From: an uncultured Colwellia sp.
GTDB taxonomy: Bacteria > Pseudomonadota > Gammaproteobacteria > Enterobacterales > Alteromonadaceae
DNA: 64,000 nucleotides
Assembly (NCBI GenBank): GCA_913062815.1
Contig: CAJXWZ010000011.1
Location: forward strand, 1-64,000
Direction: 5' to 3'
The notes under the pieces were generated by a model. The model did not search any database. It worked only from the letters and a program-made list of their open reading frames with translations, and had not been told where the DNA came from. Shown here in pieces: positions 53,556 to 63,954 of the stretch. Every line of letters starts with the position of its first letter. The first letter of the stretch is position 1. A program made the translations under genes and the position numbers.

Positions 53556-56045
53556 GTGCAACAAGTAATGAGCAGTGCCATAAGCCCTCACTTAAAAAAG
53601 TTTGAAAAACAAATACTAAGTTTGGTGCCTTATGCAAGTAACGATAGACTTGGTTTTCTCGTTAAAAAACTCCTGCCCGAAGAAAGTGATGGTCGACACC
53701 TTGCCGTAAAGAATGAAATAAAAAAACTTGCGCAACAAACCACCAAGATTATTGACTTACGTGAGCTATTTTCAGATTGCCAAGCAGTTAAACATAATAG
53801 ACTTACCCACTACCTAGACACTGCAGGTAAAGAGTTTTTTAATCAAAAACTCTTAGAATATCAAAACTTATATGCCATGGCTGTCTATCACGAAGTTTAT
53901 AGTGATGCACAAGAGCGGGCTAACAACAAAGACAATATAAACAGTAACAGTAGTGAATTCACCGAGTTTGAAGTTGAAAAAACAGAGCAAAAACCCTTAG
54001 TTAATAAGAACATAATCATTAATGAAGAAAAAATACTTAACTCTTCTTGTAAAGTCTTTATAAATCCCATCATGGGCATGACATCTCAAGGCAAAAAAGA
54101 AGTTGGTATCACGGCCCATATTGAAAAAATGAATAACCATACCGTTGTTATTCAAACCTCAGGCGAAATAGCCGATATTAAAGCTAACAAAGTTTATTTA
54201 TGGCTATATGATCATCACAAAGAAATTGATTTTACTGAGGAGCTCGAATTAGGCTTTGTAGTGATTGATAGCCAAAGGTCGTCTACCAATAATAAATTTG
54301 AATACTTGTTAAAGTTCTCTAGCCCGATTACAGATAAGCAAATGCGTATCCTATTCTGGCATTACTTAAAGCAAAAAAGATTAGCAATAATAGGCCCTAA
54401 AAAACGATTTATTACTCCACTTTTCGACTCAATAACCTCTAAAGGTTACGAGCAATTATATATAAATAAAACCCATGACATCCCTTTACTTTGCTATAAA
54501 AAAGAAAAGGTGTGGCATGCAAAAGTTGCGCTAAAAACTCTAGGTAATGATGAGTTGTGGAATTTTTTTAGTGACAAAGACCAGAAGTTTCACCTGCCAG
54601 TAATACTTGGAAATAATACTATTCAACAGACATTAAATGAGCGTGAAACTGTTGATAAATATGCCTTAATATTAAAAGCGACTTATGAAGAGAATTTTAC
54701 CTATGCACTTATTTGGTATGACGAATTAATCAACGATATCAAAGTACAAAAAGTTTTTAATCGATATTTCAAAAAGAATCTCTTTAGAATGATTAAGATA
54801 TCATCATCGTATGTTAACACTAAACAAGATGCGCATGTTCCTTCACCTTTACCTTGTCATGTTCATCCTAAAATGGCGGTATTGAATAGACCGCCTCCCA
54901 AAGCCGCACTAGATATGTTGATTGATTGTGATCACATGATCACCGTTTCAGATATAACCAGTTTATACGAAACGATATATGCTCCCATTGGCGCTAACAT
55001 ACCTGAGTTGCAGAAGAAATTGCCTAAGAAATTTCAACTTAGCACAACCGATGAACTTGAAAATGTTGAAATAGTCACCGCTGAAAATGATGATTCGAGA
55101 AATGAAGATCGCTTTGTTCTATCGTTTAAAATGGCCGTGACGCGAAGTAATAATGTAGTGACAAATATTACCGGTAAAACTCAAAATATTTCAACCCAAG
55201 GCTTATTGGTAAACCTTGTAAAGAAGACTAAATTTAGAGCCGGAGAAGAAATTGAAATCGAGTTAACCGTTCCCTTTACCGGACAAGATCGTACCCTTAA
55301 AAAACAAAAATATGTTGTACTTGGTTATGATAATAAAGGTGCGGTGCGATTGCTAATGAACGCTATTGAAAGTAAACATTTAGCTTCCCGCGCTATACGA
55401 AAATACTTATATCAACACATTGATAGTTTAGAAGCATGTGGTAAAAGAGGTAGTCGAATTTATGGGCTTCAAAAAGCCATAAGAAACATTTATGCCCATA
55501 ATCACTTTTCAATTCCCTTTTACTTGAAAGCAACAAAACACCAGCAATATATTAATGCTGCCAGCTTTAGTGGCAACTCAGCGCTGAAGCACCTTATATA
55601 CAAGAATGACAGCAGCGAAGAAATTATTCTTAATTTGTTAAGTAATAAAAAGTTTAGAGATTCATGTTTATCAATCATTGCCGTGCTAGCAAGTAAAGAC
55701 TTACCAGCACGCTCATTCTATATTCTTGTGTTACCCAAAAATAAAGATAAAAATGAAATGTATTCATTTTGGTACCGTGACCTAGCAGTACTCAAGAAAT
55801 CTTCGCAACTACAAGAATATACCAACAAAGTAACTGATATTGGTCAGCCTGCAATTCTAAAGGTTGAGCTTAAAAAAAGCAGTAAAGTAAGAAACATGTA
55901 TTACCGTGATGAAATACACTATTTAAAAAGTTTAGATAAAGAGTTAGCTGATGATATTAATATTCAACTAGAAAACACTATCGGGATTGGCGAAGTGACT
56001 GATTTAACTGATATCGCCATCAAAATGATAAATAATGTTAACTAA
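53556..56045 (+). CDS. large PilZ-domain-containing protein
   Basis: ORF 829 aa; DSRNEDRFVLSFKMAVTRSNNVVTNITGKTQNISTQGLLVNLVKKTKFRAGEEIEIELTVPF resembles PilZ (RxxxR-like / N-S-x-x-G-like). Confidence 0.7.
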   Translation: MQQVMSSAISPHLKKFEKQILSLVPYASNDRLGFLVKKLLPEESDGRHLAVKNEIKKLAQQTTKIIDLRELFSDCQAVKHNRLTHYLDTAGKEFFNQKLLEYQNLYAMAVYHEVYSDAQERANNKDNINSNSSEFTEFEVEKTEQKPLVNKNIIINEEKILNSSCKVFINPIMGMTSQGKKEVGITAHIEKMNNHTVVIQTSGEIADIKANKVYLWLYDHHKEIDFTEELELGFVVIDSQRSSTNNKFEYLLKFSSPITDKQMRILFWHYLKQKRLAIIGPKKRFITPLFDSITSKGYEQLYINKTHDIPLLCYKKEKVWHAKVALKTLGNDELWNFFSDKDQKFHLPVILGNNTIQQTLNERETVDKYALILKATYEENFTYALIWYDELINDIKVQKVFNRYFKKNLFRMIKISSSYVNTKQDAHVPSPLPCHVHPKMAVLNRPPPKAALDMLIDCDHMITVSDITSLYETIYAPIGANIPELQKKLPKKFQLSTTDELENVEIVTAENDDSRNEDRFVLSFKMAVTRSNNVVTNITGKTQNISTQGLLVNLVKKTKFRAGEEIEIELTVPFTGQDRTLKKQKYVVLGYDNKGAVRLLMNAIESKHLASRAIRKYLYQHIDSLEACGKRGSRIYGLQKAIRNIYAHNHFSIPFYLKATKHQQYINAASFSGNSALKHLIYKNDSSEEIILNLLSNKKFRDSCLSIIAVLASKDLPARSFYILVLPKNKDKNEMYSFWYRDLAVLKKSSQLQEYTNKVTDIGQPAILKVELKKSSKVRNMYYRDEIHYLKSLDKELADDINIQLENTIGIGEVTDLTDIAIKMINNVN

Positions 56046-57368: not shown

Positions 57369-59642
57369 ATGACCGCACAAAACTCATTAAACCAAATTTA
57401 TCTCGATGCCAATGCGACAACGCCTGTTTTGCCAAAAGCAGCTGCCGCAGCGCTGACAACAATGGAAACATTGTTTGGTAACCCAAGTAGTAGTCATATT
57501 TCAGGTCTGCAAGCTAAGCAAATTATGGATAATGCCCGCGAAAAGGCACAACAGGTTTTAGGCTCAGGTAATGGTTCGGTTATTTTTACTAGCGGTGCGA
57601 CTGAAGGTATTCAAACAGGCATCATATCTGCGCTTTATAATGCTAAGTCGCAGATGGAAGCAGGTAAAAAACATACACTTTTATACGGTGCAACTGAACA
57701 TAAAGCGGTTCCTGAATCGTTAAAGCATTGGAACAAAATTCTTGAAATCAATGCTGAAATAAAATCGATACCGGTTAATAGTGATGGTGATCTAGATTTA
57801 GACTTTATCGCTAATGAAGTACCAAATGCTTTAATGATTTGTACCATGGCGGTGAATAATGAAACTGGTGTATATCAAGACTTATCGCGTTTAGATCAAG
57901 TTATCCGTAAGCATAACGCCAATGTATATTGGATGGTTGATTGTGTGCAAGCGTTAGGTAAAACATCCCTTAGCTTAGCAACTACCAGTATTGATTATGC
58001 TCCCTTTAGTGGTCATAAATTATATGCCCCAAAAGGCATTGGTTTTGTTTATATTCGTGAAAATGCACCTTTTACACCTTTCATTGCCGGTGGCGGTCAA
58101 GAAGGTGGTTTACGTTCTGGCACTGAAAACTTACCAGGGCTTGCTGCACTCAATGTTATTTTTGATATGCTGCTTTCGAATGATGATGAATCGTTCGCTG
58201 ATGTTGAAGAGCTTCATAAATTTAGAGCGCAATTAGCGGCGGCATTAAAACAAGCATTTCCTGAGGTAGTATTTAATCATAACTTCAAAAATAGTGTACC
58301 GACTACATTGAACTTTGCCATTCCTGGTTTTAGCTCTAAAGAAATGATGGACTTGTTTGATGCTGCCAACATTCGGGTGAGCTCGGGCTCTGCCTGTAGC
58401 TCTAAAGTAACTCGTAGTTTTGTATTAGATGCTATGGGTTTACCTCAATGGCAAAGTGAATCGGCTATTCGTATGTCTTTTGGCCCTGCAATGACACAAG
58501 CACAAGTTGATGCAGCCTGTGAAGGTATTATATTTTCAGCTCAAGCTTTAGGCCAAAGCTGTTTAACTTTAGATGAAAATCCAGTTAACCCAAGAGCAGA
58601 GCTCAATGGTTTGGTTCAATTTAAAGTAGGTGGTAGTTGTACTTGGTTATATGTAGATCAAGTAAGTAAGTCTGCGGTTATTATTGATCCTTTAGTTGAA
58701 ATAACCGATCGTTTAGCAACAATGTTAAATTGTCAAAAATTAACATTAACCGCTGTAATTGACACTCATGGACATGCAGATCATATATCAGCCCGTGAGC
58801 AACTCGTTAACCAAATAACGAATGTGCAAAAAGTTGATGCGCTAGGTTGGCCCCTAGAGTGTGATTCACAAAGACTCAATAATCAGCATTACCCAATGAT
58901 ACAAATAGGTGAAAAGTACTTAGTAAAAGTAGCTACTCCTGGTCATACCGACGATAGCATTAGTTTAATTTTATGCTCTGATAACCAATCGTCTGGCGAA
59001 CTGACTACCGATTATGTATTTTGCGGTGATATGATTTTAATGGGCAGCTTAGGTCGAACGAACTTTGACACAAGTAGCGCTGAGAAAATGTATCACAGTA
59101 TTCAATTGCTTGGCAGTATCGTGGGCAATGAAAGTTTGATATGCGCAAGTCACGATTACCATAATGAATTTTTAACTACGATAGCGGCTGAAATGGATCG
59201 TAATACTTTACTAACGCAAGTCATCAATAATGAGCTTAAAGTTACAGAGTTCGTCATGCAAAAGGCCGCATTAGATAGCAATATCAATGATGAAGTCGGC
59301 ACCGAAATCATGTGTGGTGCTTTTGTGGATTCTTGCAGCAAAAAACAAGTAATTGACTATAACTCTCAAACTTTATCAGAGGCAATGTCGCAATCAAATG
59401 ACATGACTTTAATAGACATTAGAGAACCCCATGAATATGCATTAGGTCATAGTCAACAATTTGATTTAAATGTACCACTTACCCGTTTAGTTGATTTTAT
59501 TGGCGCACATCGAGATAAATCTGAACCGTTAGTTTTAGTTTGTCGTAGTGGTAGCCGCTCTCATATTGCAGCTCAAGCATTAGCCCGTTTAGGTTATAAC
59601 AATGTCGGCCACTTAAAAGGTGGTTATGCTTTAAATCATTAA
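57369..59642 (+). CDS. fusion protein: cysteine desulfurase-like aminotransferase V + ETHE1-like MBL (persulfide dioxygenase-like) + rhodanese
   Basis: Class V: IYLDANATTPVLP, FSGHKLYAPKGIGFVY, RVSSGSACSSKVTRS; MBL: VIDTHGHADHISAREQL, TPGHTDDSISL, YVFCGDMILMGSLGRTNFD, CASHDYHNE; rhodanese: LIDIREPHEYALGH, VLVCRSGSRSHIAAQALARLGY. Confidence 0.92.
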   Translation: MTAQNSLNQIYLDANATTPVLPKAAAAALTTMETLFGNPSSSHISGLQAKQIMDNAREKAQQVLGSGNGSVIFTSGATEGIQTGIISALYNAKSQMEAGKKHTLLYGATEHKAVPESLKHWNKILEINAEIKSIPVNSDGDLDLDFIANEVPNALMICTMAVNNETGVYQDLSRLDQVIRKHNANVYWMVDCVQALGKTSLSLATTSIDYAPFSGHKLYAPKGIGFVYIRENAPFTPFIAGGGQEGGLRSGTENLPGLAALNVIFDMLLSNDDESFADVEELHKFRAQLAAALKQAFPEVVFNHNFKNSVPTTLNFAIPGFSSKEMMDLFDAANIRVSSGSACSSKVTRSFVLDAMGLPQWQSESAIRMSFGPAMTQAQVDAACEGIIFSAQALGQSCLTLDENPVNPRAELNGLVQFKVGGSCTWLYVDQVSKSAVIIDPLVEITDRLATMLNCQKLTLTAVIDTHGHADHISAREQLVNQITNVQKVDALGWPLECDSQRLNNQHYPMIQIGEKYLVKVATPGHTDDSISLILCSDNQSSGELTTDYVFCGDMILMGSLGRTNFDTSSAEKMYHSIQLLGSIVGNESLICASHDYHNEFLTTIAAEMDRNTLLTQVINNELKVTEFVMQKAALDSNINDEVGTEIMCGAFVDSCSKKQVIDYNSQTLSEAMSQSNDMTLIDIREPHEYALGHSQQFDLNVPLTRLVDFIGAHRDKSEPLVLVCRSGSRSHIAAQALARLGYNNVGHLKGGYALNH

Positions 59643-59674
59643 GCAGATAGTTGCTCAATCCACTTAATAAATGA

Positions 59675-59707
59675 AGCCATCAATAGGTAAATGTTGATGG
59701 CTTTTTT
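59675..59707 (+). terminator. intrinsic terminator after the fusion gene
   Basis: AGCCATCAA-(10 nt)-TTGATGGCT followed by TTTTTG. Confidence 0.85.
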
Positions 59708-59861: not shown

Positions 59862-60515
59862 GTGATTGAAGTTAAGGATTTATGTTTTAGTAGAAGTGAT
59901 GGCGATACGCAACACAAAATATTAAATCAACTAAACCTATCAGTACCTGCAGCACAACATCTGGCATTACTTGGTGATAGTGGCTCTGGTAAAACAACAC
60001 TGTTACATATCTTAGCCGGATTGTTACCAATAGACAGTGGCTCAGTAAATGTTAATAACCAAGAATTGTCATTACTAAATGACAAAAAACTCGCCTTCTA
60101 CCGCCGAAGAATTGGCTTAATATTTCAGCATTACCAATTGCTTGATTGCTTAACCGTAAAGCAAAATATTTTATTTCAACACAAGTTAAACTACGCCAAT
60201 CAGCCTGCGATTGAATTTGACCACCTGGTTGAAACATTAGGCCTGTACAATAAACTCGACGCTTTACCTCATCAGCTTTCTGGTGGTGAACAACAACGTG
60301 TTGGCATTGCCAGGGCATTACTAAACAAGCCACAAATTATTTTTGCCGATGAGCCAACCGGAAATTTAGACCAAAAACGCTCTCATCAAGTAGTCGAATT
60401 ACTAACAGGCTTATGCCGTGAGCGTGAAATTAACCTGGTAATGGTAACTCACAGCCAGCAATTAACAGATTATTTTGATCAAGTTAAAATTTTGAGGGAT
60501 GGCCGGTTTGAGTAA
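59862..60515 (+). CDS. ABC transporter ATP-binding protein (LolD-like)
   Basis: [54 protein letters not shown]. Confidence 0.95.
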
Positions 60516-62901
60516 TGAAATCAAACTGATCATTGCCAGCCATATGGCGTTTTATCGTCGTCACCCTTGGTTAATGATACTTTTTTTATTAGGTTTTAGC
60601 TTAGGAAGCGCACTATTAACCGCTATAGCCGGGCTTAATCAAGAAGCAAAGTCCCGTTACCAAGATTCATCCGCATTACTTAATAACCCCGTCACTCATC
60701 TCATTAAACCACCTACAGGTGAACAATATTTTCATGGCAATATCTGGCTAGAACTACGACAACATGGCTTTTTGAACACACAACCTGTTTTGCGGGGTAA
60801 AATAAAAACGAACACAGGAAAAACCTTGGCTATTCAAGGCGTTGACACTTTATTATGGCTTAACAAAAAACAGAATCAAAAGCGTAATAAAAATTCGACG
60901 AAAACATCTACAAGGTTTTCGTTAACGACTTTGTTAGTCGATTCACAGTTCACTGAGCGCCTCGTCAATAAAGCAGGTAAACAAATAAAGTTTGTGTTGG
61001 AAAGTAGTCAACAGCAACCTGAAATTCATTTCGTTGATGATATTGGACTTTGGGCAATGACTGATATTGCCCATGCCGATTATTTACTAGGCGCGAAGGG
61101 TCAACTTAGCTTCATAGAGCTTGTCAATGTTAGCAGCTCAGAGCTCGAAAAAATATCAGCATTACTCGCAGGTAGAGCTCAACTTGTCGATGCTACACAG
61201 CAAGAGTTCGATGTATTATCACAAGCCTTCTTTTTTAATCTCAGCGCACTTGCCCTACTTGGTTATATTGTTGCCGCATTTTTAAGCTTTAATGCGATAA
61301 AGCTCACCTTAACCGCAAGGAAAAAGTTGTTAACACAAATGCATTTACTCGGTTGTACTAAGTTAAGCATTCAGCTGAGTTTAACCATTGAACTTGTTTT
61401 GGTAAGTTTATGTACTGCATTGTTAGGCACCTTAGGGGGTTATGTCATTGCTAATGCGCTGGTACTTGATGTAAATCGCACACTAGTTGGTTTGTATCAA
61501 CTTGATAAAGCGCTAGTGATTAACTGGCAATGGAGTAATGTATTATTAGGGTTCTCCTTAAATATTTTTGCCTTAGCAGCCATATTATTAACACAAACAA
61601 AGCGACTAGCCCAAAAAAGTACTCGGGTATTCTATAGTTTATTGGTCACTACGGTTGTGGGATTAAGTTGGTTGCTTAATTACGCCACAAGCGAATATCA
61701 AGCCTTACTATTATGTTTTACTATTTTAGTCTTGTTTATTTTACTCGTACCTAAAGCGCTTTCGTTTTTAGTGGCATTACCGTTAAACATGACAAACCCA
61801 TTGGCTCAATGGTTACATGCTGACTCTCGTTTGCATTTAAAAGATTTGCACATCGCTATTATCGCGATTTTAGTTGCGCTTGGCAGCGCTATTGGTATGC
61901 AAATTATGGTGAAAAGTTTTAGTAATACCTTAAATGCGCACCTTGAAAAACAGCTAAGTGCTGATATTTATTTACGCACAGCAAAGTATGATAATACGTT
62001 AAGAGAGTCACTCTCGGCTTTACCACAAGTAAAGCAATTGAGCATTTATATGCAAAGTGAGGGCAAGGTCAACAATCTCCCAGCAAGGCTTACCAGCTTT
62101 GGTGAAACTTACCGGCATTATCAGCATATTTCACTCGTGTCCGGACAGTTACTTAGTCAAAAAAACTTTGAACACCAAGGCTGTTTAGCGAACGAGCAGA
62201 GTAAAATAAAATTTGGCATTGTACTCGGAGATAACGTTGAATTTAAGCAAAACTCGTTAACTTTCAACTGCCGTATTACCGGGTTTTTCTACGACTATGG
62301 CAATCCGAGCATGTTACTTCTAACGTTAGAAAACAGGCAAAATGCAGCCAAGTTGAATACCGAATATGTGGGTTATAGCATTCGCCTAAACGACAATAGT
62401 AGTGTTGCTCACTTTAGCGAACTTTTAGTTAATAAATTCAAACAAGACAGCACCCGTATTTTGCCAAACAAACAGTTTAAGCAATATGCTAACACATTAT
62501 TTAATGATACTTTTGTCGTCACTAAAGCGCTTAATGGTTTTATTCTCGCGATTGCACTGTTGAGTTTATGTACTAGCTTGTTAAGTTTGAGTGCTAATCA
62601 GTTGAAACAACTAATTATTTTACGAAATCTAGGCGTAACACAACAACAATTATTGATAATGAAATTATTACAAACCGCAGGGGTAGTTCTATTCACGGCA
62701 TTGTTTGCTATTCCCCTTGGCTTGGCGCTTGGCTTTGCCTTATTGAAATTTGTTATGCCTATCGCTTTTGGTTGGACTATACACTTTAGTTTAGATTTAC
62801 CAACACTCATATTAACTTGCTCTACGCTAGTGGTTGTTTCAATTGTCTGTGCGTATTTACCTATTAGAAAGTTAACGGCGCTAGTCGCTAAGGGATCGTA
62901 A
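60499..62901 (+). CDS. ABC transporter permease, FtsX-like
   Basis: 800-aa polytopic ORF overlapping the ATPase gene by 17 bp. Confidence 0.9.
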   Translation: MAGLSNEIKLIIASHMAFYRRHPWLMILFLLGFSLGSALLTAIAGLNQEAKSRYQDSSALLNNPVTHLIKPPTGEQYFHGNIWLELRQHGFLNTQPVLRGKIKTNTGKTLAIQGVDTLLWLNKKQNQKRNKNSTKTSTRFSLTTLLVDSQFTERLVNKAGKQIKFVLESSQQQPEIHFVDDIGLWAMTDIAHADYLLGAKGQLSFIELVNVSSSELEKISALLAGRAQLVDATQQEFDVLSQAFFFNLSALALLGYIVAAFLSFNAIKLTLTARKKLLTQMHLLGCTKLSIQLSLTIELVLVSLCTALLGTLGGYVIANALVLDVNRTLVGLYQLDKALVINWQWSNVLLGFSLNIFALAAILLTQTKRLAQKSTRVFYSLLVTTVVGLSWLLNYATSEYQALLLCFTILVLFILLVPKALSFLVALPLNMTNPLAQWLHADSRLHLKDLHIAIIAILVALGSAIGMQIMVKSFSNTLNAHLEKQLSADIYLRTAKYDNTLRESLSALPQVKQLSIYMQSEGKVNNLPARLTSFGETYRHYQHISLVSGQLLSQKNFEHQGCLANEQSKIKFGIVLGDNVEFKQNSLTFNCRITGFFYDYGNPSMLLLTLENRQNAAKLNTEYVGYSIRLNDNSSVAHFSELLVNKFKQDSTRILPNKQFKQYANTLFNDTFVVTKALNGFILAIALLSLCTSLLSLSANQLKQLIILRNLGVTQQQLLIMKLLQTAGVVLFTALFAIPLGLALGFALLKFVMPIAFGWTIHFSLDLPTLILTCSTLVVVSIVCAYLPIRKLTALVAKGS

Positions 62902-62904
62902 TTA

Positions 62905-63954
62905 ATGTTCACAAGGTTATGGATGGTCTTTTGCTTTTTCACTTTGTGCGCCTGCCAACCTGTCGTGCAAGAACCAAGCTCATCAGCTTTTAACATGACA
63001 AGTGGCAAGCCAGTAGTAAAAGGCACAAAACTCCTCTTTCCCCAAGATCATGGAAGTCATAGTGAACAGGGGATTGAATGGTGGTATTTAACCGCTAACT
63101 TGCAAGGTGATACTGGTGAAAGCTTTGGTGTTCAATGGACGCTTTTTCGCGCTTTAATGCCTAGTGGCATTGAGTCAACATGGTGGGATAATAATATTTA
63201 TTTTGCTCACTTTGCCGTGCAGCATAATCAAGAACATGTTGCCTTTGAACGTTTTGCTAGAGCTAGCCAAGCATCAATTAATAGCTCGCCATTTCATGCT
63301 GTTATTGATAACTGGCAATTACAAAGTATCCAAGACGAATTTTTACCGCTTAAGCTAAAAGCTAGCCATGATAACTATACAGTTGACATCACATTGAGTG
63401 ATAGCCCAATGACGTTACACGGCAATAATGGTTACAGTCAGAAAACTCAGAGTGGTCATGCTTCCTATTACTATAGCTATCCCTTCTTAAAGGTTGATGG
63501 AAAACTGACTTTTGCAGGAAATGAGTATGAAGTAACAGGCAATGCGTGGTACGACAGAGAATGGTCAGCAAGTTTACTTGATAAAAATCAACTAGGTTGG
63601 GACTGGTTTAGCCTAGTTGATTCACAAGCGAATAAAAACGGTTTAATGCTATTTTGTATTCGAGGCAGCGATCAAGGCTATGATTATTGCAGTGGCACCC
63701 GAATAGCGCCCGACGGCAAAGCAACTGAAATAGCAAAAGAAGACATTAATCTGACTATCATTGAAACAGTAACGTTAGGTGGCCAGCAATATCCAAGCAA
63801 ATGGCAGGTTGACCTGCCGGATATCGATGCAATCACGATAGAAACCGTTACTCGCGATTCACGCAATCAACTAACCGTGTCTTATTGGGAGGGCAGAATT
63901 CACGCATCTGGTGGCTTTAATGGTAAAGGCTACGCTGAATTAACCGGATATTAA
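62905..63954 (+). CDS. AttH/CrtC-like lipocalin-domain lipoprotein
   Basis: Lipobox FFTLCACQ; GIEWWYLTANLQGDTGESFGVQWTLFR; GNAWYDREWSASLLDKNQLGWDWFSLVD. Confidence 0.88.
   Translation: MFTRLWMVFCFFTLCACQPVVQEPSSSAFNMTSGKPVVKGTKLLFPQDHGSHSEQGIEWWYLTANLQGDTGESFGVQWTLFRALMPSGIESTWWDNNIYFAHFAVQHNQEHVAFERFARASQASINSSPFHAVIDNWQLQSIQDEFLPLKLKASHDNYTVDITLSDSPMTLHGNNGYSQKTQSGHASYYYSYPFLKVDGKLTFAGNEYEVTGNAWYDREWSASLLDKNQLGWDWFSLVDSQANKNGLMLFCIRGSDQGYDYCSGTRIAPDGKATEIAKEDINLTIIETVTLGGQQYPSKWQVDLPDIDAITIETVTRDSRNQLTVSYWEGRIHASGGFNGKGYAELTGY

Follow-up and report, generated by a model that had tools for sequence, protein, structure and literature searches.

A single gene of an uncultured Colwellia sp. 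encodes what, judged from its sequence, is a real, conserved and uncommon three-domain sulfur enzyme (termed here P0001), which unites in one polypeptide two known fusion types: the desulfurase-rhodanese chimera CD-Rhd and the persulfide dioxygenase-rhodanese fusion (PDO-Rhd). The gene occupies positions 57369-59642 of the forward strand of the window, that is, of the whole 64,000-nucleotide stretch of DNA analyzed. We consider it rather likely that P0001 functions as a stand-alone cysteine-sulfur processor, in which a persulfide relay from desulfurase to rhodanese is combined with an inserted persulfide dioxygenase that would serve as an O2-dependent sink.

To our knowledge, desulfurase-rhodanese chimeras have so far been described without an origin; those found here close a series to which a three-domain enzyme with a persulfide dioxygenase also belongs, and a full-text search of part of the literature found no published account of desulfurase, PDO and rhodanese in one chain. 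P0001 thereby offers a candidate O2-dependent route from cysteine to sulfite that does without cysteine dioxygenase, as well as a ready test of persulfide passage along one chain and of its oxidation, for which natural intact, damaged and MBL-free versions are available for comparison. It may also be a source of parts for cysteine biosensors such as CyReB, which was built on CD-Rhd (PMC12319549).

Gene and domain architecture

The open reading frame runs from an ATG at 57369 to a stop at 59640-59642 and specifies 757 residues with no internal stop. The initial annotation had described one uninterrupted frame with three domains and had suggested a Pfam architecture search, which indeed finds Aminotran_5, Lactamase_B and Rhodanese in this order; the motifs it had pointed out are likewise all present, namely SGHK (K217), SSGSACSS (C343), THGHADH (H467-H472), SHDYH (H595) and CRSGSRS (C725). 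The same single frame occurs in many independent genomes, which rules out an assembly error joining separate genes; given this recurrence and the conserved catalytic residues, the three-domain frame is far beyond chance.

Residues 10-382 (57396-58514, forward strand) form a cysteine desulfurase domain of the NifS/IscS type (Pfam PF00266 Aminotran_5, 5.2e-56; TIGR03402 NifS, 3.6e-79; PDB 1ecx, 4e-60). Like the NifS/IscS desulfurases, and as expected from sequence for a class V cysteine desulfurase, it combines the Aminotran_5 fold with the PLP lysine, K217 (58017-58019; conserved in 31/31 rows of one alignment and in 89/89 of a larger one), and with a catalytic Cys loop containing C343 (58395-58397; 86/86 tree rows). 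Unlike them, it falls below every equivalog cut-off (266 bits versus 530.75 for TIGR03402 NifS; 212 versus 643 for TIGR02006). The genome also encodes a separate housekeeping IscS, at 32% identity. At the other end of the chain, residues 672-753 (59382-59627, forward strand) match the rhodanese family above its cut-off (PF00581, 2.4e-11) and contain a CRSGxR active-site loop whose Cys, C725 (59541-59543), is invariant (86/86 tree rows), as expected of a catalytic rhodanese. The whole-chain structure was predicted with confidence (pLDDT 85.8, pTM 0.84), and in its desulfurase part it agrees with structures of IscS/NifS. Desulfurases are dimers.

The middle domain

Between these two lies an MBL domain (about residues 412-650; 58602-59318, forward strand), recognized both by Pfam (PF00753 Lactamase_B, residues 423-576, 6e-8) and by a PDB profile search in which the persulfide dioxygenases 4ysb, 2gcu, 5ve3 and 4chl scored 109-132 bits versus 53 for GloB. 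Profile comparison places it among the type I persulfide dioxygenases. Alignment identifies a 2-His-1-Asp iron triad consisting of H467 within the motif H467-G-H469-A-D471-H472 (58767-58784; T466-H472 with the preceding Thr), H526 (58944-58946) and D554 (59028-59030), which correspond to hETHE1 His79, His135 and Asp154 (ligand roles, PMC4383860). This ranking and the retained triad bear out the ETHE1-type assignment of the initial annotation. The equivalents of hETHE1 R163, H195 and Y197 are R563, H595 and Y597, retained in 58, 60 and 60, respectively, of the 60 triad-bearing members; equivalents of these three residues matter in PDOs (PMC4383860, PMC6060420).

Other positions have changed. 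The Arg that contacts glutathione (hETHE1 R214, AcPDO R190) is L614 in P0001 and Leu in 58/60 triad-bearing members, a mapping that is based on alignments and on a 17-residue distance to the Tyr that is the same in P0001, hETHE1 and AcPDO. Similarly, hETHE1 Asp165, the salt-bridge partner of R163, is N565 (Asn in 46/60 and Asp in 13/60 triad-bearing members). Asn is a milder replacement for Asp than is Ala. The D141A variant of AcPDO has 1.5% of its activity left (PMC6060420). Because the glutathione-binding residues of type I enzymes are partly replaced, the substrate of the iron site is uncertain, and these altered contacts may leave room for a different or in-chain substrate.

Two other readings of the chemistry bear on these assignments. 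It is very improbable that the PLP domain prefers selenocysteine or cysteine sulfinate over cysteine: its similarity to the selenocysteine lyase 3a9x is clear (7e-43), but the matches to NifS/IscS are stronger (as with 1ecx, above) and the Cys that is required for cysteine as a substrate is invariant. Equally little credence can be given to the MBL domain being a thioester hydrolase of the glyoxalase II type, even though its top NCBIfam MBL match is GSH_gloB (at 65.9 bits, with the cut-off well above, at 200.8): the PDB profile ranking disfavors this reading and, moreover, partly decayed members keep the mononuclear iron triad and lose D471/H472 first, that is, the residues whose equivalents are zinc-2 ligands in glyoxalase II (PMC4383860).

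Decay and deletion of the middle domain among relatives

The residue survey covered 89 distinct proteins, 86 of which are rows of the desulfurase-domain tree. Of the latter, 54 have the complete iron site with its hydrogen-bond network, 5 have the triad only and 5 have little or no MBL domain; another 22 have lost ligands. In five proteins (L049, L050, L108, L113 and L116) the mononuclear triad persists, whereas Asp471, His472 or both are gone from the second sphere, and in the three triad-only members examined Pfam already fails to detect Lactamase_B. Even so, homology between the ligand-free and the intact middle domain is still recognizable (hhalign 99.9%, E 1e-35), and the predicted fold of the ligand-free form best matches ETHE1 and BpPRF. 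At 70-80% desulfurase identity, the identity of the MBL domain is 35% for dead versus 54% for intact domains, whereas that of the rhodanese is 56% versus 63%, indicating faster evolution of the dead MBL domain.

At the far end of the series, four MBL-less proteins of 510-518 residues (L099-L102), all from a Burkholderiales-like family (f211), have the desulfurase joined straight to the rhodanese, and a 612-residue protein (L103:1733-3568) retains a 91-residue MBL remnant together with a divergent rhodanese that Pfam misses, in which CRSGGRS is present. The four MBL-less forms nest within the MBL-dead group, which implies that deletion is derived in f211, on a tree whose root lies on a very long branch and whose deeper order is unsure; the tree is compatible with either one or several MBL deletions (p-AU 0.055). 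In related lineages, then, the second-sphere residues go first, next the iron ligands and lastly the whole domain. By contrast, no member, not even one whose MBL domain is dead or deleted, has lost the desulfurase Lys or Cys or the rhodanese Cys. Because the MBL domain decays and then vanishes in relatives, the desulfurase and rhodanese appear to be the essential core, with the oxidation step dispensable where the domain is lost; the conserved machine of the family is, as far as its residues indicate, a cysteine-to-rhodanese persulfide relay.

Distribution and probable horizontal exchange

Besides P0001, 88 distinct relatives, each encoded by a single frame, were found in marine Gammaproteobacteria (Colwellia-like bacteria, Shewanella, Psychrobium and Pseudoalteromonas, including the genomes of Pseudoalteromonas denitrificans, Psychrobium, Colwellia marinimaniae and Shewanella gaetbuli) and in one Burkholderiales family, f211, whose placement in that order we infer, partly from composition and from its place in the class. 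Within non-exhaustive genome samples, the fusion is present in 20/61 sampled relatives (including 17/37 genomes of the same genus), in 44/395 genomes at the order level and in 27/116 genomes of f211; when the MBL-less form was used as query against 349 Burkholderiales genomes, members turned up only in f211 and f289. In an even sample of the class (369 genomes) the sole holder was the source genome itself. Thus the fusion is patchy and uncommon, just as the initial annotation had supposed of the three-way arrangement. One further gene (L056:11433-13463, genome G004) reaches the end of its contig, where its tail, SLIHISEPTRPY, resembles a translated sequencing adapter; this is an assembly end and not a loss of the rhodanese.

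P0001, compared with L008 and L009, is 83% identical to the fusion protein of P. denitrificans and at most 69% identical to those of its genus-mates, whereas IscS exhibits the opposite pattern (90-91% to genus-mates, 76% to P. denitrificans). Given this reversal, the fusion gene was probably exchanged horizontally with Pseudoalteromonas, and its solitary, shifting location is consistent with such an exchange.

Genomic context

The fusion gene stands alone. Directly 3' of its stop, at 59674-59707 (forward strand), the sequence can be read as a terminator-like hairpin consisting of AAGCCATCAA, a loop of 10, TTGATGGCTT and a T-run, an element omitted by the hairpin scan because its loop exceeds that scan's length; a promoter scan at the gene gave signals not above those of shuffled sequences. 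On the 5' side lie genes for a PilZ-like protein and for a small protein assigned to no family; on the 3' side, those for an ABC/FtsX transporter and a CrtC-type lipocalin. None has an evident link to sulfur. The 829-residue protein at 53556-56045 has a weak PilZ-domain match and no other Pfam family, and immediately downstream of the fusion gene the ABC ATPase, FtsX/MacB-type permease and CrtC/lipocalin lipoprotein genes at 59862-63954 appear to be a separate unit. A comparison of neighbors among relatives found no sulfite- or thiosulfate-handling gene conserved beside the locus, and conserved neighbors only among close relatives. An operon-based role was therefore set aside: context is uninformative where neighbor conservation stops at close relatives.

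Proposed mechanism and alternatives

In the favored reading, the PLP domain would take sulfur from L-cysteine, yielding alanine and a persulfide on C343, as its conserved residues suggest and as has been demonstrated for the CD-Rhd chimera (PMC8931425). By similarity to that assayed enzyme, the C343 persulfide would then pass to C725 of the rhodanese (PMC8931425), which would hand it on to a small thiol to form GSSH or a similar persulfide. Homology to ETHE1 suggests that the iron-bearing MBL domain, using O2, would oxidize this persulfide to sulfite and that the rhodanese may join sulfite with another persulfide to form thiosulfate, so that, on balance, cysteine and O2 would give alanine and sulfite or thiosulfate. 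Where the MBL domain of a relative is dead or absent, only the steps up to the small thiol would take place; dioxygenation would thus be an optional sink, one that is probably active in P0001, where all three active sites are intact. The pathway from cysteine to sulfite/thiosulfate that the initial annotation had put forward is accordingly plausible for P0001 itself but does not hold as a function of the whole family, in which the MBL domain becomes a pseudo-enzyme and, in a Burkholderiales clade, is deleted.

The genome contains the glutathione synthesis gene gshA, gives only weak other MBL matches to the P0001 query, and has no detectable cysteine dioxygenase (CDO). The idea that the fusion replaces CDO at the genome level was dropped: the anti-correlation is uninformative, CDO being absent from 60/61 relatives with or without the fusion. 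A bolder extension, which we regard as possible though doubtful, is that P0001 constitutes a single-chain cysteine oxidation pathway in marine bacteria that lack cysteine dioxygenase, that its dioxygenase takes a persulfide handed on within the protein, or else cysteine persulfide, in place of free GSSH, and that conversion of the dioxygenase into a pseudo-enzyme followed by its excision gave rise, along a traceable lineage, to a CD-Rhd.

Sulfur might instead flow differently. A rather unlikely alternative is that P0001 is essentially a persulfide donor of the CD-Rhd type, serving proteins, tRNA or cofactors, with the MBL domain acting as a scaffold or minor safety valve. This would fit the restriction of family-wide invariance to the desulfurase and rhodanese sites, the decay of the MBL domain at two or more places in the tree, its deletion in Burkholderiales, and the apparent retention of the fold by the dead domain in structural models, as expected of a scaffold; against it, the full iron site and network persist in 54/86 members, spanning desulfurase identities as low as 50-60%, implying that these lineages, that of P0001 included, are under selection for catalysis. 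Less plausible still is a reversed flow, as in BpPRF of Burkholderia phytofirmans, wherein the rhodanese uses thiosulfate to form GSSH for oxidation by the PDO while the desulfurase provides an independent second feed. Here the PDO-then-rhodanese order is that of BpPRF, which is also the best single-sequence PDB match across both domains, and CD-Rhd, too, accepts thiosulfate (PMC8931425); yet CD-Rhd favors cysteine about 8-fold by kcat/KM (PMC8931425), and it is the desulfurase and rhodanese that loss of the PDO leaves together.

Relation to known systems

The preferred reading, a relay with an inserted sink, can be set against several known enzymes. With ETHE1 and other type I PDOs (4chl, 4ysb, 2gcu) P0001 shares the iron triad, the second-sphere His/Asp/His and the HDY and GRT motifs, but it has Leu in place of Arg214, Asn in place of Asp165 and fusion partners on both sides. 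PDO-rhodanese fusions are already known in BpPRF and CstB. BpPRF (5ve3-5ve5) has the same order of PDO and rhodanese and is homologous in sequence over both domains; unlike P0001, it lacks a desulfurase and keeps the glutathione-contact Arg (NPRL) at the position of Leu614. CstB, a type III PDO-rhodanese (3r2u), likewise joins MBL and rhodanese in one chain as a PDO-sulfurtransferase, but it belongs to another PDO subtype, gives a much weaker profile match and also lacks a desulfurase.

The CD-Rhd protein from Pseudorhodoferax sp. Leaf274 (WP_056898193.1), a homodimeric PLP enzyme, acts both as a desulfurase and as a thiosulfate sulfurtransferase and passes sulfur from its Cys334 on to Cys466 (PMC8931425); among the desulfurases that its authors could compare, it is reported to be the most active (PMC8931425, PMC12319549). 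It shares with P0001 an N-terminal COG1104 desulfurase, a C-terminal catalytic rhodanese and both catalytic Cys residues in one chain; P0001 differs in its intact PDO/MBL insert of about 240 residues, which both CD-Rhd and the four MBL-less relatives lack. In layout and Cys positions these relatives resemble CD-Rhd: the counterparts of Cys334 and Cys466 are C338 and C479 in L099, and lie at 338-342 and 478-485 across the MBL-less forms.
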